The notes beneath the pieces were generated by a model. It made no database searches, was not told the origin of the DNA, and saw only the letters and a program-made list of their open reading frames with translations. A program made the translations under genes and the position numbers. A stretch of DNA of 64,000 nucleotides from Salinibacterium sp. NG253 (GTDB lineage Bacteria > Actinomycetota > Actinomycetes > Actinomycetales > Microbacteriaceae), in the NCBI RefSeq assembly GCF_015864945.1, contig NZ_JADYWF010000001.1, forward strand, positions 434,378 to 498,377, in the 5' to 3' direction. Of this stretch, positions 35,669-43,553 are shown in pieces. How positions within the stretch are numbered: the first letter of the stretch is position 1; the number at the start of each line of letters is the position of its first letter.

Positions 35669-36824
35669 TGGTGCTCAATTCTGCTTGGTTGAGTTCACTA
35701 CGGTGAGTCTCCTGCAGTTCGCGGCTATCGAGCCACCCCTGCGGAAGTGATGGCTTCTTCGGGGTTCCTGCGCGACCACGTTGGCCTTCAGCGTCGGCAC
35801 CCGGGTACTGCTGGCTCCAGTCGAGCTGAGCCAACAGTTCGTCAAGCTGAGCCAGGTCGTGCACGGTCGCCATTGCTGCGCGCAACTCCCCGCCGACCGC
35901 ATAGCCCTTGAAATACCAGGCAACATGCTTGCGGATGTCGCGGCACGCACGATCTTCATCGCCGAAGAATTCCACCAGCAGTTCGGCATGACGCTTAAAC
36001 GCAATGGCGACTTCGCCGAGTGTTGGCTCCGCCTTGAGGGACTCTCCTCGGAAGGCGGCAGCGAGGTCACCGAACAACCACGGGCGGCCGAGGCAACCGC
36101 GACCGACAACGACTCCGTCGCATCCGGTCTCGTCGACCATGCGCAGCGCATCGGCGGCACTCCAAATGTCACCGTTACCGAGAATCGGGGTATCGGTGAT
36201 GGTGTTCTTGAGCTTTTCGATGGCCGACCAGTCGGCGTGCCCCGAATAGAACTCTGCGGCAGTGCGCGCGTGCAATGCGATGCTGGCAACCCCGGCGCCA
36301 GCGCCAACGCGAGCAGCCTCAAGGTAGGTCAAGTGGTCAGAGTCGATGCCCTTGCGCATCTTGATTGTCAGCGGAACATCGCCGGCAGCCTTCACCGCGC
36401 CCTCGACGATGTCGCGGAACAAATCGATCTTCCACGGAAGCGCCGCTCCCCCACCCTTGCGAGTGACTTTGGGAACGGGGCATCCGAAGTTCAAGTCAAT
36501 GTGGTCGGCACGGTCTTCGGCCACCAACATCGTGACCGCTTCAGACACCGTCTTAGGGTCAACCCCATAGAGCTGGATGCTGCGGGTCGTCTCTGACTCG
36601 TGGTGCGTGATGAGACGCATGCTTTCCGGCGTGCGCTCGACGAGGGCGCGGCTGGTGATCATTTCGCTGACGTACAGCCCAGCGCCGTATTCGCGGCAGA
36701 GCCGGCGAAAAGCGGTATTGGTGATGCCGGCCATGGGCGCCAAAACAACAGGAACATCAAGGTCGAGGTTCCCGATGGAGAGCTGTGGCGCGACACGCGG
36801 GTCGGCAGGGGCAAGAATAGTCAC
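35658..36824 (-). CDS. dusB: tRNA-dihydrouridine synthase
   Basis: FMN enzyme that reduces uridines in tRNA D-loops. 388 residues from GTG 36824; an open frame to 36977 was rejected because the TIM barrel starts right after LSIGNLDLDVPVVLAPMAG. Family features: NTAFRRLCREYGAGLYVSEM, the catalytic Cys115 in HIDLNFGCPVPKVTRKGGG, and GNGDIWSAADALRMV with DGVVVGRGCLGRPW for FMN phosphate binding. It overlaps dgt by 11 bases and is divergent from a YbaK-type gene. Whether it is DusB in substrate terms is inferred from family usage. Confidence 0.93.
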   Translation of the reverse strand: MTILAPADPRVAPQLSIGNLDLDVPVVLAPMAGITNTAFRRLCREYGAGLYVSEMITSRALVERTPESMRLITHHESETTRSIQLYGVDPKTVSEAVTMLVAEDRADHIDLNFGCPVPKVTRKGGGAALPWKIDLFRDIVEGAVKAAGDVPLTIKMRKGIDSDHLTYLEAARVGAGAGVASIALHARTAAEFYSGHADWSAIEKLKNTITDTPILGNGDIWSAADALRMVDETGCDGVVVGRGCLGRPWLFGDLAAAFRGESLKAEPTLGEVAIAFKRHAELLVEFFGDEDRACRDIRKHVAWYFKGYAVGGELRAAMATVHDLAQLDELLAQLDWSQQYPGADAEGQRGRAGTPKKPSLPQGWLDSRELQETHRSELNQAELSTSGG

Positions 36825-36881
36825 GTAGCAATTGTCCCACGGCGCGCCTGAACCGGCGCCGCACATACCGGGAGGCCCCAA

Positions 36882-37361
36882 ATGACGGCAGGAACCGACC
36901 GCGTCCGCGACGATGCCGAGCGCCGCGGCATCCCGATCGACATCGTCGAGCGCGCACCAGCGACCTCCCTCGAACACGCCGCCGAGCTACTCGGAATCAC
37001 CCCGGCCGAGATCGTGAAGTCACTCGTCGTCAAACGCAGCGACGGCAGCTACCTCTTTGCCCTCGTTCCCGGTGACCGCCAGATTTCGTGGCCCAAGCTG
37101 CGCTCCGTCGTCGGTGTCAATAAATTGCGGATGCCCGAAGCCGCCCTTGCGCTCGAGGCCACCGGATTTGCGCGCGGCACCATCACCCCGCTCGGCAGCA
37201 GCACCGCTTGGCCCGTGTTTGCCGATGAACGCATCGCGGGCAAGCGAGTATCAATGGGCTCGGGAGATCACGGGTATACCACCTGGGTCAATGCGAATGA
37301 TCTCATCACCGGCTTAGAGGCGACCGTCGCCGACATTACAAGCGAAACAGGAACCGACTAA
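36882..37361 (+). CDS. YbaK/EbsC-type aminoacyl-tRNA deacylase
   Basis: A 159-residue trans-editing protein of the YbaK family, which hydrolyses mischarged Cys-tRNA(Pro) or related aminoacyl-tRNAs. The family core is visible: LGITPAEIVKSLVVKRSDG with the conserved Lys, LFALVPGDRQISWPKLR, GFARGTITPLGS and VSMGSGDHGYTTWVNA. A GGGAGG ribosome site precedes ATG 36882. Its TAA overlaps the next ATG by one base (TAATG), so the two genes are coupled. Confidence 0.9.
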   Translation: MTAGTDRVRDDAERRGIPIDIVERAPATSLEHAAELLGITPAEIVKSLVVKRSDGSYLFALVPGDRQISWPKLRSVVGVNKLRMPEAALALEATGFARGTITPLGSSTAWPVFADERIAGKRVSMGSGDHGYTTWVNANDLITGLEATVADITSETGTD

Positions 37362-37801
37362 TGGCCCTTGAGGAACATCCCAACGTCTTTCGTTTCGAAG
37401 CCCGGCTCTGGGTGAGCCCAGCACCGAGAGAAGAAGCCCTCGCACAACTGCGCGCCCAGCGGGCGTGGGACAAAGAGAACGCGAGGCTTCAGCGCTGGTG
37501 GGTTTCCTTCGGCATTGGTGCTGCGGTTGGCGTTGGCGGAATTTTGGCGATCGGAACAGCATCGAACCTCGATCCAACCCTCTACCTGTTGCTGTTACCT
37601 CTCGGCTTTGGCGGCGGCGCCATCCTTGGAGCCCTCATCAACAAGCGCTTCAATGCCCCCGAAGCGCAGCATGCCTCCTTGCCCGCTCGCCCCACCACCG
37701 TGCCGCTCACGCTCATCCCGTCGCGGGTTGCCAAAGCCGCACCAGAATTCGCTTCCGCTGCAGAAATCATCGAATGGTCTCATCGAGGTTTCGTGGGTTA
37801 A
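37361..37801 (+). CDS. Two-helix membrane protein of unknown function
   Basis: A 146-residue protein. A charged N-terminal segment (APREEALAQLRAQRAWDKEN) is followed by two hydrophobic helices (WWVSFGIGAAVGVGGILAIG and LYLLLLPLGFGGGAILGALI) and a soluble C-terminal tail ending FASAAEIIEWSHRGF. No family recognised. Start overlaps the YbaK stop by one base. Confidence 0.7.
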   Translation: MALEEHPNVFRFEARLWVSPAPREEALAQLRAQRAWDKENARLQRWWVSFGIGAAVGVGGILAIGTASNLDPTLYLLLLPLGFGGGAILGALINKRFNAPEAQHASLPARPTTVPLTLIPSRVAKAAPEFASAAEIIEWSHRGFVG

Positions 37802-38090
37802 CGAGCATTTGTTACAAATAGAAGTCGGGAATGTGGCCAGTGTCTTAACTTGCTAGACCACCGTAGATTTCTGGCGCTCACGCACACTAACGTGAGCCTC
37901 TAACCCGCGTTACCCGCACTCCTGAACTTCTCGGAGTCACGACCCACCCTGTCGCGATTCCCGCCTGCACGCACGCCAACGATGCCGCTGTGACCTTCCG
38001 TCGCGCTCATTCCTTCGTGCGCCCGGTACCCTGTCATCGCTCATTCTGGCGTGCTGCGTCGTATTAAGACTTCTCCCGAAAGAAGCACAA
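37802..38090. promoter_or_regulatory. Control region upstream of the GT2-HlyD-GH81 operon
   Basis: 289 bases without a gene. It contains two clear inverted repeats: ATTTGT-T-ACAAAT at 37807-37819 and GCTCACG-N8-CGTGAGC at 37876-37897. Either could be an operator for the glucan operon that starts at 38091, or the first could belong to the end of the previous transcript. GAAAGAAG in front of ATG 38091 is a plausible ribosome site. No convincing -35/-10 pair was identified. Confidence 0.45.
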
Positions 38091-39761
38091 ATGACGACCC
38101 TAGCTACCCGCTTTGCCGCACCCCCAAGCGACCTCCCACCCGCGCTGCCCGCGCCCCGCGTCGCTGAGCCAGTGAAGGCCGAATCACCATCGTTGGTGAT
38201 TCTGGTGCTCATCGCGACCCTGGGCATCATCGCGTATGCCGGGTTCTTGTTGAACCCGGCGAGCCGCGGTGACTGGTTGCCGTATACGCTCGTCATCCTC
38301 GCCGAGACAGTCCTGATCAGTCAGGCACTGCTGTCAATGTGGACAATCCTCTCCGCGTCGCAAGATCCCCGTGACTTCGCGTTTCACGACGCCAAAGGCA
38401 AACTTTTTCGCGAACGCGACATTCTGCGCGACGGACTGACCTCAACGCCCTCGCGCTGGACGATGTACTTGCACAGCACCGAAGCCACCGTCGACGTCTT
38501 CATCACGACGTACGGCGAACCGGTGAGCGTCATCCGCGAGACCGTTACTGCGGCGATGCGGATGCGCGGCTCCCACCTCACGTGGGTGCTCGACGACGGT
38601 CACTCCGACGAGGTGCGCGCGCTCGCCCACGAGCTCGGAGCCCGCTACGTGCGTCGGCTGAGCTCTGGCGGCGCCAAGGCCGGCAACGTGAATCATGCAC
38701 TCAGCCTCGCCAAGGGTCGCTTCTTCGCCATCTTTGACGCCGACTTCGTGCCCTCCCCCGAATTTCTCGTTGAAACGGTGCCGTTTTTCTCTCGCGACGA
38801 GGTTGCCTTCGTGCAAACGCCGCAAATGTACGGCAACCTGCACAACGTGATCTCACGGGGCGCTGGCTATATGCAGTCCGTGTTCTATCGCTTCATTCAG
38901 CCAGGCCGAAACCGCTTCAATGCCGCGTTCTGTGTTGGCACCAACGTGATCTTCCGTCGATCCGCCATCGACGATGTCGGTGGCATGTACACCGATTCCA
39001 AGTCAGAGGATGTGTGGACCTCGCTAATGCTCCACGAGCGCGGCTGGCACACGATCTACATCCCGAACGCTCTCGCCGTCGGCCACGCGCCTGACACCGT
39101 CGAGTCCTACACGAAACAGCAATTGCGCTGGGCGACCGGCGGCTTTGAGATTCTGTTCAAACACAACCCGCTCACCCACAAGCGCAAACTCACGCTCGAC
39201 CAGCGACTCCAGTACTTGGTCACTGCCTCGTTTTACCTCACGGGCATCTCACCACTACTCCTGATGATGGTTCCCGCGCTCGAGATCTATTTCGACCTGC
39301 GCCCCATGAACCTCTCGACCACGGTCGTGACCTGGATGCTCTACTACGCCGGTTTCTACGTCATCCAGATCGTGCTCGCGTTTTACACGATGGGCTCATT
39401 TCGCTGGGAGACCCTCATGTTGGCAACCGTGTCAGCGCCTATCTACCTCGCGGCTCTCATCAACGTGCTCACCGGCAAGGAGCAGTCGTGGAGCGCAACC
39501 GGCGACCGCACGAAGGTCTCATCACCGTTCAACTTCATGATTCCTCAAGTGCTGTTCTTCGTTTTCCTGCTACTGACTTCCGTCGTGGCCGTCTTTCGCG
39601 ACATCGACAACGAAGTGCTCACCCTCGCCACGGCGTGGAACGTCACCAACACGTTCATCATGGGCAGTTTCGTTGTAGCCGCAGCGCGAGAGCATGTCTC
39701 GCTCGGCCGCGCCCACCGCCTTGCCACCCGCGCACTCTCCGCGAAGGGAGCCTCAGCATGA
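38091..39761 (+). CDS. BcsA/CrdS-like processive beta-glycan synthase (GT2)
   Basis: Membrane polysaccharide synthase, 556 residues, first gene of a three-gene operon. Two N-terminal helices (residues 33-55 and 64-86) precede the GT-A domain with all processive-synthase motifs: Asp168-Asp169-Gly, FDADF (Asp216, Asp218), the catalytic-base SED (Asp307) and QQLRW at 343-347. A C-terminal membrane block follows with KEQSWSATGDRTKVSSPFN, in the position of the gating loop. There is no PilZ domain, so c-di-GMP control through the synthase itself is not expected. Cellulose, curdlan and mixed-linkage glucan synthases share this architecture; the GH81 gene in the operon favours a beta-1,3-containing product (inference). 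Confidence 0.88.
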   Translation: MTTLATRFAAPPSDLPPALPAPRVAEPVKAESPSLVILVLIATLGIIAYAGFLLNPASRGDWLPYTLVILAETVLISQALLSMWTILSASQDPRDFAFHDAKGKLFRERDILRDGLTSTPSRWTMYLHSTEATVDVFITTYGEPVSVIRETVTAAMRMRGSHLTWVLDDGHSDEVRALAHELGARYVRRLSSGGAKAGNVNHALSLAKGRFFAIFDADFVPSPEFLVETVPFFSRDEVAFVQTPQMYGNLHNVISRGAGYMQSVFYRFIQPGRNRFNAAFCVGTNVIFRRSAIDDVGGMYTDSKSEDVWTSLMLHERGWHTIYIPNALAVGHAPDTVESYTKQQLRWATGGFEILFKHNPLTHKRKLTLDQRLQYLVTASFYLTGISPLLLMMVPALEIYFDLRPMNLSTTVVTWMLYYAGFYVIQIVLAFYTMGSFRWETLMLATVSAPIYLAALINVLTGKEQSWSATGDRTKVSSPFNFMIPQVLFFVFLLLTSVVAVFRDIDNEVLTLATAWNVTNTFIMGSFVVAAAREHVSLGRAHRLATRALSAKGASA

Positions 39762-40492
39762 CCTGGCGCAGCAACCTCAAACTCGTCTTCGGCCTTATTG
39801 CAGTGCTCGCCCTCGTGCTGGTGTTGACGGTCATCTTCTCTCAACGACAAGCCCAGGTCGTGAGCGTTTCAGCCTCGATCGAGGCGGAACGTTATCCCGT
39901 CGGCATTGACTATGGCGGAACGCTCGTCGAGAGCTTTGTCACCGAGACCGATCAACGCGTCAACGAAGGCGACGTTCTGTTCACCCTGCAGAGCCCCTCG
40001 TTGCAGGCGGATCTCGCAAAAGGACTACTCAAACCCGAAACCGTCGCCTACACCGTGACCGAAGATGGCGAGATCACCCTCACCGCTGCAGTCTCCGGAA
40101 CCGTGCGCGATGTGACGACCAAGCCAGGTTCTTTCGTGCAAGCCGGGGAAGTTCTCGCCACGATCGAAAAAGCAGGATCACTCTGCGTCGTTGCTCAATA
40201 CGAACTCACCGGACGCGACTACTCCCGTATTGGCGAACACGCTCCCGTCGATCTGCTTCTCCCCAATGGAGCAAGCATCGCCGGAACCGTGTCCACAATT
40301 GATGTCCAGACGGTGAACGGACAGGCCGAAACGACAATTCGCGTTGAGAGCGATGCCCTTGCCGACGGCGCCTACAACGGGCTCGTCGAGCCAGGCACCC
40401 CCGTGAGCGCGACGCTGCAGCTGCGCGACGATGGCATGCTGGCGGGCGCTATCGATGGTGTCTCTGACTTCCTCCGCAAGATCGGCATGTAG
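39758..40492 (+). CDS. HlyD-like membrane-fusion protein of the glycan synthase operon
   Basis: A 244-residue protein with one N-terminal membrane helix (about residues 8-27) and an extracytoplasmic domain of the biotinyl-lipoyl/HlyD type: the half-motif GGTLVESFVTETDQRVNEGD and the second half AAVSGTVRDVTTKPGSFVQA, then a beta-barrel part with VDLLLPNGASIAGTV. The coiled hairpin of typical efflux adaptors is almost absent. Its ATG overlaps the synthase TGA (ATGA), so it is translationally coupled. BgsB, the partner of the mixed-linkage glucan synthase BgsA in Sinorhizobium, is also a membrane-fusion-like protein, a useful parallel. It probably guides the nascent glycan out of the membrane (inference). 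Confidence 0.82.
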   Translation: MTWRSNLKLVFGLIAVLALVLVLTVIFSQRQAQVVSVSASIEAERYPVGIDYGGTLVESFVTETDQRVNEGDVLFTLQSPSLQADLAKGLLKPETVAYTVTEDGEITLTAAVSGTVRDVTTKPGSFVQAGEVLATIEKAGSLCVVAQYELTGRDYSRIGEHAPVDLLLPNGASIAGTVSTIDVQTVNGQAETTIRVESDALADGAYNGLVEPGTPVSATLQLRDDGMLAGAIDGVSDFLRKIGM

Positions 40493-40496
40493 CCGA

Positions 40497-42518
40497 GTGG
40501 CTCGGGACGTCCGGCTTTTCTTCGTGATGACGGTGGCGGCAGTGTTAACGGCGCTGACCGGATGCACGGCCGCGACGCCTGCGCCATCAGCACCCGAGTC
40601 GAGTACCGACACAATTTTTTCCGACAGCACCGTCGGCCCACTAATCGAAGCCCTCCCCACGCGTTCAGTTGCCACGCTCGGAAGCACACGACTCGCAGAC
40701 GGACTCATCCCGCCCACCAACCGCTGGTTCTCCGGGCTCGTCTTCGGAGAAGACTCGTTGCCCGTCTTCCCGCTTCCACTCTCGTTTCAGCTAACCGAGG
40801 GTGGATTCGCGTTGGGCGTTCCCGCTGTGGTCAGCGCAGAGAATGTCATCGCCGGCAGCTTTACTCCGGCAGTGTCCGCCGACATCGGCGCTGACGACTA
40901 CGTCGTGAGCGCGTACGACGAAGCGTCCGTCACCATCTCGCAGACGGCAGGCGGGAATGAAATCGGCACGACCGTGATCGCTGAAGGCTCTCCCTTTGTC
41001 AGCTTCACGGCATCCGAAGCAGTCACGGTGACGCTCGGCCAGCCGCTGCGCGACGACGACGGCGCCTGGACAGCGGAGGTCAACGGCACACAGTACGGGC
41101 TCGTCAGCGACGGCGAGATGAATGCGGCGGGCAGCGAGTTGACTCTGGCCGCCGGCGACGCAGCAACGTGGTTCGCGGTGTCTGATGGCGGTGTTGTGGC
41201 CGACTTCATCCAGGCTGCGACACCCATCGTGAGCACGAGCATCCAGTACACGGTAGATGCTGCCGTGGCCTCGACCAGCATCCGCTACGAGACACGGGAT
41301 TCCTCCCCCACGATCGTGGCCGCCATGCCCCATCAGCAGGCCGGGCTCGACTCGTCAGTCTCCTGCGATGCTGGATCCTGGCCGAGCATTTATGGCGAAC
41401 TCGTCGCGTGCATGGCGACCGAACTCACCTGGACAGTCCCCACTATCGAGCCGGCTGGTGCCCTCGACCTCGCCAATCTCACAGAAGAGCACCGCGAAAG
41501 ACTGCGGCAACAGCTGAACGTAGATGTTGCATCAACAGTGCCCGCGCCAGCAGACACCTATTACGGCAGCAAATGGCTCTACCGCCTGACCAACATGCTC
41601 GAAGTAGCCCGCCAGATCGGCGCGGATGACATTGCCGCCACCATCACGGAACAGCTTGTCAGCGCCCTGGATACCTGGACCGACCCCGAAGGCTGTGACG
41701 AGCGAACCGAACGATGCTTCGTTTACGACGATCAGGCTCGCGGGCTCGTCGGCCTCGCGGCATCCTTCGGCTCTGACCAGTTCAACGACCACCACTTTCA
41801 CTACGGCTACTTTCTCTACACCGCCGGAGTTCTCGCCGCCGCCGACCCCGCCCTCGTCGAGAAGTGGGCCCCCGTCATGAATCTGCTCGCTGCCGACATT
41901 GCGGCCCAAGGCGAGAACAGCTACTTTCCTGAGCGCCGGGTTTTTGACGCCTACACCGGCCACTCGTGGGCCAGCGGAACGTCACCATTTGCGGATGGAA
42001 ACAACCAAGAATCGAGTTCCGAAGCGGTCACCGCCTGGAACGGCCTTGCCCTATGGGCTGCTGCCAGCGACCAAGCCGCGCTCGCTACCGAGGCCCGCTG
42101 GATGCTGTCAGCCGAAGCCCACTCGGCAAACGCGTACTGGACGAACTTCGATCGCACCGAAGCCGTATACGACGGCTTCGACCACACCGTGGCTGCCCTC
42201 AACTGGGGCGGCAAACGGGACTACGCCACATGGTTCAGCGCCGAGCCGAGCGCAATGCTCGGCATCCTTGTGCTTCCGATGAGCCCCGTCTCGGGGTACC
42301 TTGCCGCCGACCCCGATCGGATCCGTGCCAACATCGCCGAAGCTGCGCCCGATGGGTCAGACGTGCTCTTCGGCGACTACCTGCTCATGTACTCAGCATT
42401 GGCCGGAAAAGCGGATGCTGCAGCAGCGCTCGAAGAGAGCGACAACCTCAACGAAGATCGCATCGATGACGGCAATAGCCGCACATACTTGCTCGCCACG
42501 ATCATGAGCGCGCTCTAG
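40497..42518 (+). CDS. GH81 endo-beta-1,3-glucanase lipoprotein
   Basis: Secreted, lipid-anchored hydrolase of 673 residues. GTG 40497, 4 bases after the HlyD-like stop, gives a signal peptide (MARDVRLFF...) with lipobox LTGC at Cys23. The GH81 domain fills the rest: PPTNRWFSGLVFG at its start, the catalytic Asp431 in FNDHHFHYGYF, GHSWASG, and the Glu505/Glu509 pair in NNQESSSEA, then GFDHTVAALNWGGKRDYATW. Full-length and apparently active. In cellulose operons the equivalent place is held by the cellulase BcsZ, so this enzyme may trim or release a beta-1,3-glucan made by the upstream synthase. Alternatively it digests external glucan such as fungal or algal wall. Confidence 0.92.
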   Translation: MARDVRLFFVMTVAAVLTALTGCTAATPAPSAPESSTDTIFSDSTVGPLIEALPTRSVATLGSTRLADGLIPPTNRWFSGLVFGEDSLPVFPLPLSFQLTEGGFALGVPAVVSAENVIAGSFTPAVSADIGADDYVVSAYDEASVTISQTAGGNEIGTTVIAEGSPFVSFTASEAVTVTLGQPLRDDDGAWTAEVNGTQYGLVSDGEMNAAGSELTLAAGDAATWFAVSDGGVVADFIQAATPIVSTSIQYTVDAAVASTSIRYETRDSSPTIVAAMPHQQAGLDSSVSCDAGSWPSIYGELVACMATELTWTVPTIEPAGALDLANLTEEHRERLRQQLNVDVASTVPAPADTYYGSKWLYRLTNMLEVARQIGADDIAATITEQLVSALDTWTDPEGCDERTERCFVYDDQARGLVGLAASFGSDQFNDHHFHYGYFLYTAGVLAAADPALVEKWAPVMNLLAADIAAQGENSYFPERRVFDAYTGHSWASGTSPFADGNNQESSSEAVTAWNGLALWAAASDQAALATEARWMLSAEAHSANAYWTNFDRTEAVYDGFDHTVAALNWGGKRDYATWFSAEPSAMLGILVLPMSPVSGYLAADPDRIRANIAEAAPDGSDVLFGDYLLMYSALAGKADAAAALEESDNLNEDRIDDGNSRTYLLATIMSAL

Positions 42519-42583
42519 AGGAGCGAACTCAGAGACAGCGCCGTCGGCGGGTAACGCGGCACTGGAAGTTGGTGAAAAACCTC

Positions 42584-42739
42584 TTAAACGAGGCCTTCGT
42601 CGATCTGGCGGTTAACGAGGGCTTGCGAGCGGTGATCATCGACGGCAATGCCACAAGCATCGCCCTCACACGCTACTGCGTTCGGGTCGCCGAGCTGCTG
42701 GAGGGCGAAGGTCGGGATTGGCTTCGTTGCGGCATCCAT
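42584..42739 (-). CDS. 51-residue two-cysteine protein behind the FrnE-like gene
   Basis: A short frame starting ATG 42739, 3 bases after the TAA of the DsbA-type gene, and ending TAA 42584. The product has a proline/hydrophobic start (TKPIPTFALQQLGDPNAV), a Cys24-x4-Cys29 pair in ACEGDACGI and a polar tail VNRQIDEGL. The composition, the coupling to the upstream stop and the opposite strand to the convergent GH81 gene support a real gene. Similar small proteins with GDPNAV-CEGD next to DsbA-type genes in other actinobacteria are known to me only from memory. A substrate or partner role for the oxidoreductase is inferred from the cysteines. Confidence 0.65.
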   Translation of the reverse strand: MDAATKPIPTFALQQLGDPNAVACEGDACGIAVDDHRSQALVNRQIDEGLV

Positions 42740-42742
42740 GGG

Positions 42743-43411
42743 TTAGACGTCTCTTTCGGTAAGTACTTGTGTGAGTACGTTAGCGAACGTTTCACTTTCT
42801 TGCGCGCCCGAAACCCCATACTTGCCATCAATCACGAAGAATGGCACCCCCTGGATGCCGTATTGCATGGCCTGTTCCATGTCAGCCTTCACGGCGGGGA
42901 GGTACTCGCTCGACTCAAGAACGCGCACCACTTCGGCGCGGTCGAAGCCAATGGAGGCCGCGATATCAGCGAGGTCTTCGATGCGGCCGACGTGCTCGGT
43001 CTTGATGAAATAGGCGTCAAGTAGACGCTCTTTCATCTCAAGTTGGCGACCGTGAGCCTTCGCAAAATGCAGAAGCTCGTGCGCCTTCACCGTGTTTGTT
43101 TGGTGAATGTGTTCGTAGTCATAATCGAGCCCAACGCTCGAGGCGATGTCGGTGACGCGCGTGAGCATTTCCTCGACCTGCGGCATCGGGAGTCCTTTGC
43201 GCTCGCTCAAGAATTGGATGGGGGTGCCCTCATACTCGACCGGGGTATCGGGAGCTAATTCGAACGAGTGGTACACGATCTCGACGGGGATGCCCGACGT
43301 TTCTACCGCAGCTTCAAAGCGTCGCTTTCCGATGTAGCACCAGGGGCACTGCACATCAGACCAGATGTCGACTTGTACGGGTTCGGTGGTGGTTACTGCT
43401 GCATTATTCAC
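42743..43411 (-). CDS. DsbA-family oxidoreductase (FrnE-like)
   Basis: A 222-residue thioredoxin-fold protein without signal peptide, so cytoplasmic. The active site is SDVQCPWCYIGK with Cys22 and Cys25, followed by the helical insert with LPMPQVEEMLTRV and HQTNTVKAHELLHFAKAHG, and the cis-Pro region GIQGVPFFVIDGKYGVSGAQ, all as in FrnE/DSBA proteins. Members act in polyketide isomerisation, oxidative stress or disulfide chemistry; the role here is open. It starts at GTG 43411 and is followed by the 51-residue two-cysteine gene. Confidence 0.9.
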   Translation of the reverse strand: MNNAAVTTTEPVQVDIWSDVQCPWCYIGKRRFEAAVETSGIPVEIVYHSFELAPDTPVEYEGTPIQFLSERKGLPMPQVEEMLTRVTDIASSVGLDYDYEHIHQTNTVKAHELLHFAKAHGRQLEMKERLLDAYFIKTEHVGRIEDLADIAASIGFDRAEVVRVLESSEYLPAVKADMEQAMQYGIQGVPFFVIDGKYGVSGAQESETFANVLTQVLTERDV

Positions 43412-43461
43412 CTCAGGGTCAACGCGCGCAGGCTGTGGGTATTCCCAACCCCGCGTTTTCT

Positions 43462-43553
43462 CGGAAATTCAGGAGATCCGCGAGTTGCGTGTCGGTAGCG
43501 CGCGCGATTTCGGGCCTGCTCTCTCGGAAATTGCGAAATCTCCTGAATTTCCG
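43462..43553. repeat. Inverted-repeat element, copy A (92 bp)
   Basis: Perfect 16-base terminal inverted repeat CGGAAATTCAGGAGAT (43462-43477) and ATCTCCTGAATTTCCG (43538-43553) around a 60-base core. A nested CGGAAATT at 43525-43532 repeats the start of the left arm. The element covers the 3' end of the AbiEi/DUF559 gene and supplies its last roughly 29 codons and the stop. Two more copies lie at 44513 and 56779. Confidence 0.8.

Follow-up and report, generated by a model that had tools for sequence, protein, structure and literature searches.

A conserved actinobacterial operon of a GT2 synthase, a membrane-fusion-like protein and an anchored GH81 glucanase is predicted to make a beta-1,3-glucan

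A stretch of 64,000 nucleotides from Salinibacterium sp. NG253 (assembly GCF_015864945.1, contig NZ_JADYWF010000001.1, positions 434,378 to 498,377; hereafter the window, numbered from its first letter) contains a compact operon of three genes, which we propose makes a beta-1,3-glucan, most likely a curdlan-like one, with a probability of roughly two in three. All three open reading frames (ORFs) were confirmed on the forward strand: a glycosyltransferase of family 2 (GT2, 556 amino acids, 38091..39761) with the predicted fold of membrane-embedded beta-glucan synthases, a HlyD- or membrane-fusion-like protein (MFP, 244 amino acids, 39758..40492), and a membrane-anchored member of glycoside hydrolase family 81 (GH81, 673 amino acids, 40497..42518), which is predicted to be an endo-beta-1,3-glucanase. 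The stop of the GT2 gene and the start of the MFP gene overlap in an ATGA (39758..39761, forward strand), and a gap of 4 bases (40493-40496) separates the MFP gene from the GTG start of the GH81 gene at 40497, which agrees with the tight coupling described in an earlier note on this DNA. An Rfam scan of 36800-43500 returned no match, and a sigma-70 promoter scan found no promoter.

The arrangement is conserved among relatives. In 45 related loci, which were collected with exact peptide patterns and therefore comprise close relatives only (60-80% identity), GT2, MFP and GH81 follow each other in the same order in every case (45/45), with a spacing between the GT2 and MFP genes of exactly -4 bases in 41 loci, -1 in 3, and +1 in 1. 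These loci cover Cryobacterium, Curtobacterium, Frigoribacterium, Microbacterium, Cellulomonas, Oerskovia, Demequina, Nocardioides, and propionibacteria, including some metagenome assemblies. MFP counts were taken from tblastn, with many MFPs overlooked by the gene caller (family 2 in 21 loci), and the GH81 matches of L016 and L028 stop at or close to where the available DNA ends. Among the ORFs found by the gene caller, every other family is confined to at most 9 of these loci, and the two families that reach this number, an oxidoreductase and a helicase-like gene, both do so in Cryobacterium. Therefore, the conserved unit consists of the three genes; the wider neighborhood was rejected as a part of the system, the scanned flanking families being unrelated to glucans.

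Larger genome samples extended this observation. In a class sample of 394 genomes (the window's own included), the GT2 profile matched 8 genomes with 859-986 bits, compared to 318 bits for the next best match, and GH81 lies downstream of GT2 in all 8, while a further 43 genomes encode a GH81 without this GT2 (Fisher p 5e-8, uncorrected for kinship). In an order sample of 396 genomes, again including the window's own, GT2 passed E 1e-100 in 52 genomes, 51 of which also have GH81, and in 50 of the 52 the GH81 domain match starts 1775-2336 bases past the GT2 match in the same orientation. Two genomes deviate: in G711, GT2 lies at a contig end, and G464 (locus L139) encodes a distant GT2 homologue (423 bits, 38% identity) with no MFP or GH81 match. 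In a phylum sample, the window's own genome was the only one of 296 with the GT2. The order of the genes is kept even in a divergent member from another family (G532, L140), with identities of 53% for GT2, 32% for MFP, and 41% for GH81. Moreover, 51 of 81 Cellulomonas genomes encode the GT2, the same 51 the MFP, and 50 of these an operon-type GH81, which was found in none of the other 30; GT2 and operon-type GH81 are thus concordant in 80/81 genomes, and in the sole mismatch, G775, fewer than 574 bases of contig remain past the MFP match. The invariant gene order in the 45 loci together with the co-occurrence in the Cellulomonas and order samples rules out a chance neighborhood, and the co-occurrence of GH81 with this GT2 in relatives, which had been set as a test beforehand, was found almost without exception.

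Some genomes deviate in copy number. In both Demequina loci, the same GT2 occurs once more past GH81 (L034, 7969-9498; L046, 6577-8142), and two GT2 copies were also found in several order-sample genomes. Cellulomonas G728 contains two complete operons (C1:564641 and C1:3514790), and G805 has the GT2-MFP pair twice before a single GH81 (C1:3972740-3980226). In G788 (C1:360118-361661), the operon GT2 is split over two frames, by mutation or sequencing error, with MFP and GH81 remaining.

The GT2 displays the features of a processive synthase, i.e., the D,D,D,QxxRW motif and membrane channel helices; its Pfam matches comprise GT2 families and Cellulose_synt, and no PilZ domain was found at E<=1. 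The earlier description of a synthase with intact catalytic motifs and without PilZ is therefore well founded. The best NCBIfam match is a cellulose synthase model, at 250 bits far below its cut-off of 699, and among proteins of solved structure, cellulose synthases are the nearest in sequence as well. An AlphaFold2 model (predicted local distance difference test score, pLDDT, 78.7; residues 466-479 below 50) is closest in fold to BcsA (TM-score, TMq, 0.60-0.70); plant cellulose synthases reach 0.53-0.68, barley CslF6 0.56, and hyaluronan synthases, which score lower, 0.39-0.46.

In a GT2 tree of 49 rows, the operon family (16 rows) forms a single clade (100/100) and falls outside the one that unites BcsA, CrdS, and BgsA (100/97). 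Approximately unbiased (AU) tests rejected joining the family with the CrdS+BgsA group (p-AU 4e-6), with BcsA (p-AU 8e-47), and with BcsA, CrdS, and BgsA together (p-AU 8e-7); the tested clades were named after the tree had been seen, and the tree carries long branches (PgaC, NodC, L153, L149, and others). Judged from these sequence comparisons, the operon GT2 is a separate synthase lineage. The earlier designation as a BcsA/CrdS-like synthase needs correction in that the GT2 is no member of the CrdS, BgsA, or BcsA clades. A grouping with a non-glucan synthase was not observed: the family is separated from NodC and PgaC, the two such synthases on the tree, and hyaluronan synthases, which were compared by fold only, score lower. 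Another actinobacterial GT2 group (L147 and its kin L148, L150, and L151) is weakly placed (80/43) near the operon family; in L147, the next gene encodes an acyltransferase-SGNH fusion.

Residues at the channel entrance have been proposed to set the linkage (PMC6821405; this and the other papers cited here by accession are drawn on in part), and our CrdS references (L136, L166, L171) match 15/15 of the AtumCrdS residues named there, with the same numbering. At CrdS positions 237 and 259, the operon family has Q and Q in 50/50 rows, and at position 270 R in 49 rows and K in 1, so that Lys270 of CrdS is met in the family only as a basic residue. This combination of Q, Q, and R/K is common to CrdS and BgsA, whereas three BcsA proteins have H, N/G, and L/N/T. 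Furthermore, the operon family shares FCVGT with CrdS, compared to FCCGS in BgsA and FFCGS in BcsA. The BcsA-type QTPH, Asn/Gly at position 259, and FFCGS are all absent, and the window GT2 has QTPQ, Q, and FCVGT instead. These residues oppose a cellulose synthase and favor a beta-1,3-containing glucan; they do not separate curdlan from a mixed-linkage product.

The MFP matches the Pfam families HlyD_3 and HlyD_D23. Its model (pLDDT 87.8) contains one membrane helix (residues 3-31), a barrel-sandwich domain, and, at the place of the coiled hairpin, a single helix of 8 residues (80-87), which bears out the description of a short HlyD-like protein with almost no hairpin. Its fold neighbors in the PDB include ZneB, EmrA, MexA, AcrA, and BesA; TMq stays at or below 0.60 in all 50 neighbors listed. 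HlyD-type genes also adjoin the CrdS orthologue in L136 (HlyD_3, weak) and the GT2 on C58 pAt, and in four further rhizobial or Nitrobacter records such a gene lies next to or one gene from a GT2. GT2s of the CrdS and BgsA kinds thus have HlyD-type genes close by as well, in favor of the reading proposed here. The gene upstream of the CrdS orthologue (L136:3051-4505) is CrdA-like and matches HlyD_3 with 24.3 bits against a cut-off of 22.2; the function of CrdA is described as unknown in PMC10819609, as far as the consulted part of that paper goes.

The third protein is assigned to GH81 by the C-terminal Pfam domain (E 1.4e-59), with the N-terminal domain slightly under the cut-off (24.9 vs 25.6 bits), and its nearest solved relatives by sequence are GH81 enzymes. 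GH81 is known as a family of strictly beta-1,3-specific glucanases. Asp431, Glu505, and Glu509, which we take to be the catalytic residues, are present in the window protein and invariant across 20 aligned GH81 sequences. A lipobox (LTGC) at Cys23 was identified, and 43/45 relatives pass the lipobox rule, the remaining two (L018 and L024) having an N-terminal hydrophobic stretch instead. Both the predicted lipid anchor and the intact residues had been recognized in the earlier note. In the window genome, a single GH81 was found, namely that of the operon. In a GH81 tree, the operonic rows (51 with L073) are split from 28 free GH81s by a branch with a Shimodaira-Hasegawa-like approximate likelihood ratio (SH-aLRT) of 100; this tree was built with a quick method without bootstrap, leaves out the short L016, and uses 28 of the 44 free class-sample matches, and L073 is labelled as non-operonic in it, despite an MFP match at L073 itself and the presence of the GT2 in the genome concerned (G092). 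Several Cellulomonas genomes encode a second, longer GH81 directly past the operon, e.g., G810 (C2:230850-232766) and G782 (C1:1355863-1357779), with open frames of approximately 1120-1160 amino acids.

The link to a known product comes from Cellulomonas. The Gram-positive C. flavigena is a published curdlan maker (PMC3544764, PMC3035266), and the operon is present in this species (G763, L157) as well as in C. fimi (G760, L158) and C. gilvus (G702, L159). G763 lacks FlhA, and G760 and G702 have it, in agreement with the flagellar genes reported in PMC3544764. For each of the species, the same paper names two GT2 genes as CrdS-like (35-39% identity to CrdS) and, in the part consulted, assigns no single synthase. 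Three of these genes, Cfla_3154, Celf_3456, and Celgi_1506, are very probably the operon GT2s: estimated by hand from locus tag numbers and counts of coding sequences, they should be no more than approximately 1.5% of genome length away from the operon GT2s, and by the same estimate, the other three should be equally close to a second group of GT2s (L160-L162). The part of PMC3544764 consulted treats Cfla_3154, Celf_3456, and Celgi_1506 as single CrdS-like GT2 genes and does not mention a link to an operon, MFP, or GH81; a search of open-access literature for four Cellulomonas locus tags led to this paper alone.

Curdlan production in Cellulomonas has been reported to go with non-motility, and C. 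gelida to make none (PMC3035266, after Kenyon 2005). The native curdlan of Cellulomonas reportedly stays unstained with aniline blue (PMC10819609). Among the 81 Cellulomonas genomes, the operon occurs in 22/24 without an FlhA match and in 29/57 with one (Fisher p 4e-4, uncorrected for kinship), two of the latter 57 genomes (G768 and G781) having FlhA fragments only. This association echoes the reported link between curdlan and non-motility and is only suggestive.

Comparison with known systems places the operon beside several beta-glucan loci. Like crdASC of Agrobacterium, the product of which is a beta-1,3-glucan as predicted here, it combines a GT2 without PilZ, a HlyD-type neighbor, FCVGT, and Q237/Q259; in contrast to crdASC, its GT2 belongs to a separate clade and has none of the CrdS residues H374, K382, W422, and H442, its MFP comprises 244 instead of 484 amino acids, and a GH81 takes third place. 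With bgsBA of Sinorhizobium and Rhizobium, it shares a two-gene core of MFP and GT2 and similarity in the N-terminal part of the MFP. However, the MFP gene comes first there, no glucan hydrolase is annotated beside it in L135, and BgsA is longer (664 amino acids) with a C-terminus that binds c-di-GMP (PMC5567048, PMC9495663). The parallel to BgsA and BgsB that had been drawn for the first two genes thus stands for the HlyD-type partner and fails for the GT2, which lies outside the BgsA/CrdS group. As in bcsABZC, where bcsZ comes third after bcsA, a synthase is accompanied by a dedicated glucanase gene, but GH81 occupies the place of BcsZ, and no BcsB or BcsC gene lies beside the operon (BcsB was looked for at the locus only). 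RiGT2 of Romboutsia is likewise a beta-glucan synthase from a Gram-positive organism; according to its description in PMC10374906, by which alone it was compared, it differs in having a PilZ domain and in making a mixed-linkage glucan, and it has been expressed in a yeast laboratory strain. We found no paper on a GT2-HlyD-GH81 operon in the open-access literature, with subscription papers mostly outside the search. The statement that no actinobacterial operon of this form has been described therefore holds for the operon within that literature, and is qualified by the three Cellulomonas GT2s, which were very probably listed singly (PMC3544764).

We regard the operon as a new variant of synthase-dependent beta-glucan secretion and, most probably, as a self-sufficient machinery for a glucan of the cell surface. 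Fold and motifs suggest that the GT2 would polymerize glucose from UDP-glucose on the cytoplasmic side of the membrane and pass the chain through its own channel. The MFP, held by one helix, may accept or stabilize the emerging chain on the outer face, and would need no long hairpin because there is no outer membrane to reach. Beside the exit, the lipoprotein GH81 would cut nascent or surface beta-1,3-glucan, either for release or trimming of chains, in the way that BcsZ acts on cellulose, or for the recovery of glucose at carbon shortage; both roles are possible. The sequences themselves show which genes are present, their order and spacing, their co-inheritance, and the predicted folds and residues, from which the product, the roles of the proteins, and the direction of use are inferred.

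Several observations weigh against a curdlan-like product. The literature consulted links none of the operon members to a product, the operon is present in C. fimi, for which little curdlan production is reported (PMC3544764), and C. flavigena encodes a second CrdS-like GT2 elsewhere (L160). Membership of the GT2 in CrdS was rejected by the AU test (p-AU 9e-55). The CrdS residues at H374, K382, W422, and H442 occur in 0/50 family rows, and E439, which CrdS shares with BcsA, is T (35 rows) or V (15 rows) in the family, nearer to the T/S of BgsA; the window GT2 has V, G, I, T, and L at positions 374, 382, 422, 439, and 442. FCVGT may be ancestral, since it also occurs in the outgroup L139, which lacks an MFP or GH81 match. 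Finally, hhalign matched the MFP to the protein at the BgsB position of Rhizobium etli (probability 93, 22% identity over 87 N-terminal residues) and not to the CrdA-like protein (no match, probability 3), which pulls towards mixed linkage.

If the GT2 worked like BgsA and GH81 cut at runs of beta-1,3 bonds, the product would be a mixed-linkage (1,3;1,4)-beta-glucan, which we consider unlikely. The BgsB match would be accounted for, as would the T/V at E439 and the entrance residues Q, Q, and R, which BgsA has as well as CrdS, but the union of the family with the CrdS+BgsA group was rejected. Of the two products considered in the earlier note, the curdlan-like one is better supported because GH81 is known to be specific for beta-1,3 bonds and the operon occurs in a species with published curdlan production. 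Moreover, the bonds of the Sinorhizobium mixed-linkage glucan alternate perfectly (PMC9495663), which would make it a poor substrate for such an enzyme. That the operon makes cellulose or another polymer, and that GH81 targets external glucans of fungi or plants and merely happens to lie there, appears very improbable: the NCBIfam match of the GT2 and the 43 class-sample genomes with GH81 alone point this way, but so close an agreement of GT2 and operon-type GH81 in Cellulomonas, the separate clade of operonic, membrane-anchored GH81s, and the absence of the BcsA-type H, N/G, and FFCGS argue against it.

It also seems improbable that the other CrdS-like GT2 (Cfla_2615 type, L160-L162) accounts for the curdlan of Cellulomonas and that the operon makes something else. 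Both genes are listed in PMC3544764, and L160 scores 335 bits against the CelA model, as does the CrdS orthologue in L136 (335), compared to 248 for the operon GT2 of C. flavigena. However, L160, the one of the three examined, has the cellulose-type FFCGS, no MFP or GH81 match lies within 10 kb around L160-L162, and a match of the partial kind (133-150 bits) occurs in 23/81 Cellulomonas genomes, of which 9/23 also have the operon, so that the two are not linked.

The favored reading, a curdlan-like beta-1,3-glucan, would have consequences beyond the window. How C. flavigena reuses its curdlan has been called unclear (PMC3544764), and a membrane-held beta-1,3-glucanase encoded together with the synthase would be one answer to this question. 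More tentatively, Actinobacteria may have evolved a curdlan synthase of their own, paired with a hairpin-less MFP and a membrane-held GH81 in the role of BcsZ; the operon would then hold the curdlan genes of Cellulomonas and would provide many Micrococcales with an unrecognized beta-1,3-glucan coat or reserve. A beta-1,3-glucan would be predicted for Cryobacterium, Curtobacterium, and Demequina, among other genera. The operon joins a candidate synthase and a predicted glucanase in one unit and makes the actinobacterial curdlan synthase directly testable; if the reading is true, this enzyme would represent a second, separate GT2 solution to the beta-1,3 linkage, useful for finding the determinants of linkage in this enzyme family.

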